Source: Thermoflexus hugenholtzii JAD2
Lineage (GTDB): Bacteria > Chloroflexota > Anaerolineae > J036 > Brachytrichaceae
DNA length: 61,920 nt
Reading direction: 5' to 3'
Assembly (NCBI GenBank): GCA_945877855.1
Contig: CAMDWA010000005.1
Location: forward strand, 1-61,920
Position 1 is the first letter of the stretch. Each line of letters begins with the position of its first letter. The translations under genes and the position numbers were made by a program. The notes beneath the pieces were generated by a model, which worked only from the letters and a program-made list of their open reading frames with translations, ran no database searches and had not been told where the DNA came from. Shown one piece after another: positions 23,681 through 25,279 of the stretch.

Positions 23681-23735
23681 GCCAATTTCACGATCTCTGG
23701 TCAAGCATAGCTTGACCAGAGATCGTGAAATTGGC
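23681..23735. terminator. Perfect 26-bp hairpin with 3-nt loop, probable bidirectional terminator
   Basis: Arm 23681-23706 (starting GCCAATTTCACGATCTCTGG) is fully complementary to 23710-23735 around the loop ATA. It lies between the convergent FabI-type and selenoprotein genes. There is no long U-tract on either side (GAAAA follows), so it may be a weak terminator, an mRNA-stabilising hairpin or a REP-like element. Confidence 0.75.
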
Positions 23736-23758: not shown

Positions 23759-24343
23759 TTACAATGCCGCAAACTGCTCTACCGCATAATCATCTACGCG
23801 CACCCCTAGCCCATCGGCGACACGGTTAACATAGGCAAAATAAGCCGTCACTTGGTTGATGTCGAGAATATCGCGGTCATTCAATTGTTGGGCGCGTAAG
23901 GCAACAAGATCAACCTCGCGCACCGCCCCCGGCGTTTTGGTCAGCTTTACGGCATAATCGAGCATAGCGCGTTGTCGCGGGGTAATCTCGGCTTGGGTGT
24001 AATCATCGATTAAGACGCGTGCCAATTGTGGTTTTTTGGTAAGGCGGACCAGACCGGCCGCATGATGCTTTACTCAATATTCGCATTGATTGATCGCTGA
24101 AACCACCACGCCAATCATTTCGCGTTCGGGCCGCGTGATGGCCGAGCGCCCATACATCACGGTGCGATACAAATCAACATGCGCCCGTAATGTTTCAGGG
24201 TGCAAGCTATGCACCTTCAGAATGTTATCGACAAGGTGATGTTCCTTGTCCCATTCTTTTTCATATAGTTCGCGCAACAGCCCTTCGGCTTTGTCTTCGG
24301 CGATCACTTCAATCCACGCAGGGCGGTTTGTTTGGCTTGTCAT
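23759..24343 (-). CDS. AhpD/carboxymuconolactone-decarboxylase-family selenoprotein (in-frame UGA = Sec90)
   Basis: The 194-residue reading starts at ATG 24343 (MTSQTNRPAWIEV). It runs through REREMIGVVVSAINQCEY, meets TGA at 24074-24076 and continues in the same frame as VKHHAAGLVRLTKKPQLARVLIDDYT to the stop at 23759. AhpD-like peroxidase-related proteins have CEYCVxHH at this point, so the UGA stands exactly at the second cysteine of the redox CxxC, giving C87-E-Y-U90 followed by the histidine pair 93-94. The protein is full length for the family (about 190). The likely role is thiol/selenol-dependent peroxide or alkylhydroperoxide reduction. A SECIS follows the UGA. Without recoding it would appear as two fragments, a 90-residue half and a second one. 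Confidence 0.88.
24039..24076 (-). promoter_or_regulatory. Bacterial SECIS element after the UGA codon
   Basis: On the minus strand UGA (24074-24076) is followed by GUAAAG, which pairs with CUUAC at 24039-24043 as a lower stem. An upper stem then forms (GCGGCC / GG-U-CCGC, 24044-24061) with apical loop GGUCU at 24051-24055. The loop begins 19 nt after the UGA. E. coli fdhF has the same GGUCU loop at the same distance; in bacteria SelB binds this hairpin. One bulged U is on the 3' side here, whereas in fdhF it is on the 5' side. Confidence 0.85.
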
Positions 24344-24348
24344 AAAAA

Positions 24349-24381
24349 AATAAAGGCGAAGCATAAAGCTTCGCCTTTATT
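24349..24381 (-). terminator. Terminator-like hairpin abutting the selenoprotein start
   Basis: A perfect 14-bp stem (AATAAAGGCGAAGC, loop of 5) is followed on the minus strand by a run of U that ends at the selenoprotein ATG (24343). It looks like an intrinsic terminator for the upstream VOC gene. If both genes are read together it would act as an attenuator. An extended -10 (TGATACAAT, minus strand, about 24377-24385) just upstream could start a transcript inside the stem and so avoid termination. Confidence 0.75.
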
Positions 24382-24470: not shown

Positions 24471-25244
24471 TTATGCGCGATTTGAGTATTGAATAATCGA
24501 AAACGTTGCGCCTTGAGGATCAGCTAACACAGCTACGCGACCAAATGGTGTATCGAAGGCCGGCACACGCAGTGTGCCACCCAACGCCACCGCTTGTTCA
24601 ATCGACTCATTGGTGTTTTTTACCGCAAAATACACCATCCAATGGGGTGGAATGCCGTCCCAATTCGCATCCATTTGCAAGACACCGGCAACGGTTTTGC
24701 TGCCAATGTTGAGCATGTAATATTCCATCGTGGGCATGAGTTGCGATGTTTGACCATGTAACCCACAATAAAAATCGCGGGCCTTGGCAGCTTCGCGGCT
24801 ATTCACCTCGTGCCATGTCATCGCGCCGGGTTCATCTGTTACGACTGCGCCAATATGCTGATTCGATTCCCACAAGCCAAACACAGCGCCAGTGGGGTCA
24901 ACACAAACCGTCATGCGCCCAAATTCACCAATGGTCATGGTTGGAACCATCACTTGACCACCTGCAGCAATTACTTTCGCAGAATCGACTTCAGAGTCAT
25001 TGGTGGCAAGGTAAACCGTCCAAGCAGACGGTATATTGGGATCATCCGACATCATCGGGCCAATACCAGCAACAACGTTGTCATTTAACAGCGCATTCGC
25101 GTAATAACCAAATTCTGGCCCGCTAATGAGATACGTCCAACCAAACAAATTGCCATAAAACTTACGAGCGGCTTCGGGGTCAGAGGTCATTAAATCTGCC
25201 CAAGTAGGGGTGCCGGGGGTTTTCTTTTGAGTATGTATTGACAT
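24471..25244 (-). CDS. Two-domain VOC (glyoxalase-like) protein
   Basis: The 257-residue protein has two vicinal-oxygen-chelate domains. The first (residues 8-125) holds WADLMTSDPEAARKFYGNLFGW and ends CVDPTGAVFGLWE; the second (135-255) holds WHEVNSREAAKARDFYCGLHG and ends LADPQGATFSIIQ. Proteins of this CFP-30/27-kDa antigen type are common in Actinobacteria and Chloroflexota, and few have a known substrate. I start at ATG 25244 (MSIHTQKKT), which lies 6 nt after the -10 box. It precedes the selenoprotein gene on the same strand. Confidence 0.88.
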   Translation of the reverse strand: MSIHTQKKTPGTPTWADLMTSDPEAARKFYGNLFGWTYLISGPEFGYYANALLNDNVVAGIGPMMSDDPNIPSAWTVYLATNDSEVDSAKVIAAGGQVMVPTMTIGEFGRMTVCVDPTGAVFGLWESNQHIGAVVTDEPGAMTWHEVNSREAAKARDFYCGLHGQTSQLMPTMEYYMLNIGSKTVAGVLQMDANWDGIPPHWMVYFAVKNTNESIEQAVALGGTLRVPAFDTPFGRVAVLADPQGATFSIIQYSNRA

Positions 25245-25250
25245 AGGTAT

Positions 25251-25279
25251 ATTACAGAACAAACGTTCTTTTTTGTCAA
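25251..25279 (-). promoter_or_regulatory. Consensus promoter with an overlapping GAAC-N4-GTTC (LexA-like) box
   Basis: On the minus strand -35 TTGACA (25274-25279), a 17-bp spacer and -10 TGTAAT (25251-25256) drive the VOC gene. Transcription should begin at or next to the ATG, so the mRNA would be leaderless. The spacer contains GAACAAACGTTC (25257-25268), which fits GAACRNRYGTTY, the LexA/DinR box of Gram-positive bacteria. A regulator bound there would block RNA polymerase. Confidence 0.7.

Follow-up and report, generated by a model that had tools for sequence, protein, structure and literature searches.

An AhpD-like gene interrupted by UGA in an Anaerolineae bacterium very probably encodes a selenocysteine-containing protein

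Introduction

On the minus strand of the window (the whole 61,920-nucleotide stretch of DNA analyzed here), an AhpD-like reading frame is interrupted by a TGA codon, which raises the question of whether this codon ends a truncated gene or is read as selenocysteine (Sec) within an intact one. An initial annotation, made from the letters of the window, had favored the second answer. Selenoproteins of this kind are already described: AhpD-like CxxU proteins of COG2128 were found in a Sargasso Sea study in 2005 with 27 sequences (PMC1088965), AhpD-like 1 was counted 299 times in the GOS survey of 2008 (PMC2398784), an AhpD-like/COG2128 CxxU selenoprotein is also described in PMC9312934, and a 2026 review lists the AhpD-like selenoprotein under TIGR01926 (PMC13188914).

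Results

A single frame spans the UGA codon

The frame extends over 195 codons from ATG 24343 to a TAA at 23761–23759, with the TGA as its sole interruption. Translation of the TGA as U yields a 194-residue product in which U90 is preceded by C87 and followed by H93 and H94, within the motif SAINQCEYUVKHHAAGL. The initial annotation had described exactly this frame, broken only by the TGA and continuing in phase with VKHHAAGL to give CEYU-VKHH, and had predicted that ordinary gene calling would yield two short genes. Standard calling indeed splits the gene into a 96-residue frame (24364–24074; 89 residues if ATG 24343 is used) and an 88-residue frame (24025–23759) that begins at a TTG inside the gene. 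The coordinates of the locus are collected in Table 1.

Table 1. Coordinates of the AhpD-like gene, its predicted active-site codons and adjacent features.
Feature	Position	Strand	Basis or remark
AhpD-like (TIGR01926) gene, very probable selenoprotein	23759..24343	-	194 codons; frame, motif, family match, homologue codons
UGA codon 90 at the second position of CxxU, very probably decoded as selenocysteine	24074..24076	-	TGA or Cys codon here in all intact homologues
Cys87 codon, predicted resolving/partner thiol of the CxxU pair	24083..24085	-	invariant in 20 aligned sequences
His94 codon; by spacing, His137 of M. tuberculosis AhpD	24062..24064	-	invariant in alignment
Glu75 codon; by spacing, Glu118 of M. 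tuberculosis AhpD	24119..24121	-	invariant in alignment
Putative bacterial SECIS hairpin	24044..24061	-	nt 16–33 (U of UGA = 1); covariation and invariant loop
Terminator-like hairpin	24349..24381	-	14-bp stem, 5-nt loop; U-tract runs into start codon
VOC/glyoxalase-family gene, upstream (context)	24471..25262	-	same strand

The product has a predicted AhpD-like fold and a complete relay

The 194-residue reading matches the NCBIfam model TIGR01926 (peroxidase-related enzyme) at 162.8 bits against a cut-off of 81.8 (E = 6.7e-48), with residues 9–185 aligning to positions 1–177 of the 178 in the model, and it matches Pfam CMD at 46 bits against a cut-off of 23. These matches cover both sides of the TGA and thus describe one known domain architecture; since the two halves align to one family model, the continuity of the frame is beyond chance. 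The AhpD/CMD assignment of the initial annotation, with the UGA at the second Cys of CxxC, agrees with this result and with Cys homologues that carry TGC or TGT at that codon. Membership in NF041238 (AhpD_rel_CFYUT, Sargasso hypothetical protein 1), a related (seleno)protein family with CxxU, was rejected at 59.9 bits against a cut-off of 175.

An AlphaFold2 model of the product (mean pLDDT 95, pTM 0.90) has the all-helical AhpD/CMD core fold. Foldseek searches with this model returned 3C1L (Mlr4105), 2PRR, 2PFX, 2OYO and the Deinococcus radiodurans AhpD-like protein 6K40 with TM-scores of about 0.83–0.93, the values for 3C1L, 2PRR and 6K40 being about 0.9, and phmmer matched the same structure entries. 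These proteins share the length and fold of the window protein at about 30–37% identity, and in 3C1L and 2PFX, the two aligned residue by residue, the relay residues are kept and a Cys occupies the position of Sec.

In M. tuberculosis AhpD the relay consists of Glu118, Cys130, His132, Cys133 and His137 (PMC3141380). All five positions are present in the window protein as E75, C87, Y89, U90 and H94, and across 20 aligned relatives E75, C87, Y89, C/U90 and H94 are invariant (one mis-framed homologue on a short contig, L056, was left out of the protein alignment). The spacing is the same in both proteins, with the Glu 12 residues before the first Cys and the His 4 after the second, whereas the M. 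tuberculosis enzyme has CxxC in place of CxxU and His132 in place of Tyr89, and overall sequence similarity is low. Pseudomonas aeruginosa PA0269 likewise has a Tyr in place of His132, and in the comparison made for that protein the active-site helices lie in a different region of the chain than in M. tuberculosis AhpD (PMC3141380).

The product probably catalyzes peroxidase/reductase chemistry

By analogy with these relatives, the product probably carries out peroxidase/reductase chemistry, as a thiol/selenol peroxidase or a disulfide reductase. The D. radiodurans AhpD-like Cys relative guards against H2O2 largely through its CxxC motif (PMC8945050), and a peroxide-reducing function of the window protein is extrapolated from this protein and from those compared in PMC3141380. 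In the predicted mechanism, the selenol/thiol pair C87-x-x-U90 would be set in the relay E75-C87-Y89-U90-H94, with U90, which replaces the second Cys of the AhpD pair, as the most likely attacking residue. Its selenolate would attack and reduce a hydroperoxide (or a disulfide partner); the resulting selenenic acid would condense with C87 to form a selenenyl-sulfide, which a thioredoxin- or lipoyl-type donor could then reset.

A genuine selenoprotein with other CMD-superfamily chemistry, such as reductive dehalogenation or a role as disulfide/lipoyl adaptor, is possible, if on the unlikely side. Foldseek also matched the reductive debrominase Bmp8 (TM about 0.78), classical AhpD can serve AhpC as a lipoyl-linked adaptor, and the local gene neighborhood holds no peroxidase partner gene, nor does any neighbor point to a pathway. 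Against this, the closest relatives in sequence and structure are the peroxidase-related TIGR01926 proteins, and the full AhpD relay is conserved.

The neighboring genes encode VOC, amidase, enoyl reductase-type SDR, histone-deacetylase-like and UDG proteins. Linkage of the first VOC gene, the amidase gene and a flavoprotein gene to the AhpD-like gene is kept only in the closest congener (G001), and no neighbors are shared with the loci L049, L050, L052, L053 and L057. The proximity to VOC genes that the initial annotation had singled out therefore holds in the window and in this congener but not beyond it.

The UGA codon is retained among relatives and the sequence after it is constrained

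Two independent assemblies of the same genus, G001 (89–90% identity) and G003 (77%), share the single in-frame TGA, and a MAG labelled Acidimicrobiaceae (L049, 74% identity) has one in-frame TGA at the equivalent codon. Beyond these congeners, the class holds about 45 more genomes in which the UGA at codon 90 is kept; among the closest rows (45–90% identity), nearly all contain exactly one TGA. At an E-value threshold of 1e-18, 92 of 396 genomes of the class have a homologue, and 80 of the 92 carry a TGA-bearing one; tRNA-Sec is found in 70 of these 80, and the other 10 are all below 90% complete. At the aligned codon, 62 distinct rows have TGA (48), TGC or TGT (13: L022, L025, L039–L041, L051, L078–L082, L093 and L096) or GCT (1), the last in a broken copy with a further stop inside (L094). 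Every homologous locus that was read, bar this one, thus has TGA or a Cys codon at the site.

It is highly improbable that the gene is a pseudogene, truncated by a true stop and followed by a dead half or a separate small ORF, even though standard calling splits it and one congener (G002) has a truly decayed copy. That copy (L021, contig 337) looks otherwise: a deletion has fused the start of the VOC gene to about codon 43, and extra TAG and TAA stops have accumulated beside the retained TGA, so that stops of all kinds are present, while the stem pairs of the hairpin discussed below are broken. In the intact copies only TGA occurs, at codon 90 alone, across dozens of genomes. Furthermore, dN/dS against G001, the nearest congener, is 0.006 before the TGA and 0.085 after it (dN 0.083, dS 0.969 for the latter), which indicates that the downstream half is a protein under purifying selection. 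The decay in G002 does indicate that the AhpD-like gene is dispensable.

Sec and Cys forms are clustered on the tree, with 3 label changes against a shuffled mean of 11.2, and a Cys clade stands apart from the Sec clade. Two Cys rows fall within the Sec clade. One of them, L051 from Bacteroidetes, has a long branch and an unsure placement. The other, L078 (genome G122), has TGT and 51% identity to the window protein; tRNA-Sec is present in G122, and the gene keeps the hairpin GGCGAAGGUCUUCGCC, which also occurs in its Sec neighbors L060 and L061. Because this Cys form is nested among Sec forms and retains a SECIS-like hairpin, its sequence suggests a recent Sec-to-Cys change, of which it is likely a fossil.

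The nearest named relatives are the MAGs Anaerolineae AQU-02 and Chloroflexi 336R, in keeping with the "Chloroflexota-like" label of the initial annotation. L049, although labelled as a member of the Actinomycetota, groups inside this Chloroflexota genus, by transfer or through a mislabelled or contaminated contig. A second, separate TGA-bearing AhpD-like branch was also observed in the same class at about 36–45% identity (L023, L024, L026, L027, L083–L086, L088 and L095). A pattern scan of genome contigs returned only four relatives, and plasmid records held only distant ones (<50% identity), which are peroxidase-related enzymes where annotated.

The genome encodes the Sec machinery

The host genome, a 4.43-Mb draft that is 78.7% complete, contains every gene that the initial annotation had named for a check: tRNA-Sec (76.4 bits against a gathering score of 47; tRNA-SeC with anticodon TCA in ARAGORN), SelA (E 1e-127), SelB (334.7 bits, cut-off 242) and SelD (377.7 bits, cut-off 125). 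The selD gene (L016, G000 C37:7379-8314) also carries one in-frame TGA and no other, within CAG-U-AGK; SelD thus appears to be a candidate selenoprotein, and the genome would have at least one besides the AhpD-like protein.

This machinery bears on two further explanations. That UGA is read as an amino acid other than Sec, by a reassigned code or leaky read-through, seems scarcely credible: an open frame under TGA=X does not in itself name the residue, but the only alternative seen at the site is Cys, the usual counterpart of Sec, tRNA-Sec and SelA, SelB and SelD are present, and the congeneric copies L019 and L020, as well as L049, terminate at TGA, which indicates that UGA is a stop codon in this lineage. 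A sequencing or assembly error that turned TGC or TGT into TGA, conceivable in a draft MAG, can be dismissed almost entirely, as the TGA is common to independent assemblies of the genus and to many families and the Sec machinery is present.

A putative SECIS hairpin follows the UGA

Shortly 3′ of the UGA, at nt 16–33, the mRNA can form the hairpin GCGG-CC-[GGUCU]-GG-u-CCGC, with the loop at 24055–24051 and a bulged U at 24048. As in bacterial SECIS elements, it lies just 3′ of the UGA and has a G in the apical loop. In six sequences, 3 of the 6 stem pairs show compensating changes and the GGUCU loop is invariant; stem cells are paired in 100% of cases in register, compared to 25–44% when the partner strand is slid. 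These six, which are close to each other, are those that share one register and were picked after inspection of the folds, and the compensating changes come mostly from one of them (L052). Other lineages have a hairpin at nearly the same place in another register.

The fold of the 50 nt 3′ of the UGA does not exceed dinucleotide shuffles in stability (z 0.18). Compared with synonymous recodings, hairpins of the Sec type have the higher stability (Wilcoxon P 6e-5, for rows that are not independent), and in the same recoding test Sec rows overall show no greater tendency than Cys rows to form hairpins (P 0.31), because the register varies among lineages. Given this ordinary stability and the lack of separation between Sec and Cys rows, it is covariation in six close sequences that carries the case for a SECIS. 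The identification of nt 16–33 as a putative SECIS is therefore well supported, but not beyond doubt.

Hairpins flank the gene

Directly 5′ of the start codon lies a terminator-like hairpin that is very stable in the window and in L019 and L020 (z about -8 to -9). Its U-tract reaches the ATG in the window and in G001, whose stems differ by compensating changes (AAAGG/CCTTT versus ACAGG/CCTGT), and no ribosome-binding site is visible before ATG 24343, which directly follows the hairpin. The G003 hairpin lacks the U-tract and has a divergent ORF as its nearest upstream neighbor, indicating that a role as terminator for a co-directional gene does not suffice to explain it there. We consider it quite unlikely that this RNA hairpin controls the selenoprotein as part of an attenuator-like leader, making its synthesis dependent on read-through of that leader or on transcription start inside it. 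The SDR gene converges on the selenoprotein gene, and the interval between them holds, at 23681–23735, a perfect inverted repeat (26 nt, 3-nt spacer) that is probably a bidirectional terminator, though a long one.

Discussion

The locus is very probably one intact gene for a Sec-containing AhpD-like protein of the TIGR01926 family, in which UGA codon 90 is read as selenocysteine. The selenoprotein reading of the initial annotation is strongly supported by the sel genes, the kept UGA, the Cys counterparts, selection after the UGA and the covarying hairpin. We infer that SelB and tRNA-Sec would decode codon 90 under the direction of the mRNA hairpin at nt 16–33, and every part needed for Sec insertion is present in the sequence.

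The protein joins the described CxxU AhpD-like/TIGR01926 class, with an Anaerolineae bacterium as host. It shares with AhpD-like 1 (COG2128/TIGR01926; example MCB9421940.1) the family model, a CxxU with Sec in second position and a predicted in-gene bSECIS; set against the descriptions of that class rather than the MCB9421940.1 sequence, it shows no essential difference, only another host lineage. A limited literature search found no papers on Chloroflexota members, which is not proof that there are none. The initial annotation was right that the class is known, but the CxxU form it had picked out for checking is not a novelty, since such proteins have been described and are common in this bacterial class.

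Selenoprotein chemistry as known is unchanged by this protein. Sec-type AhpD-like proteins are frequent in this class of Anaerolineae-type bacteria and group together there. What the selenoprotein reading corrects is annotation, as standard pipelines would give two fragments or a pseudogene.
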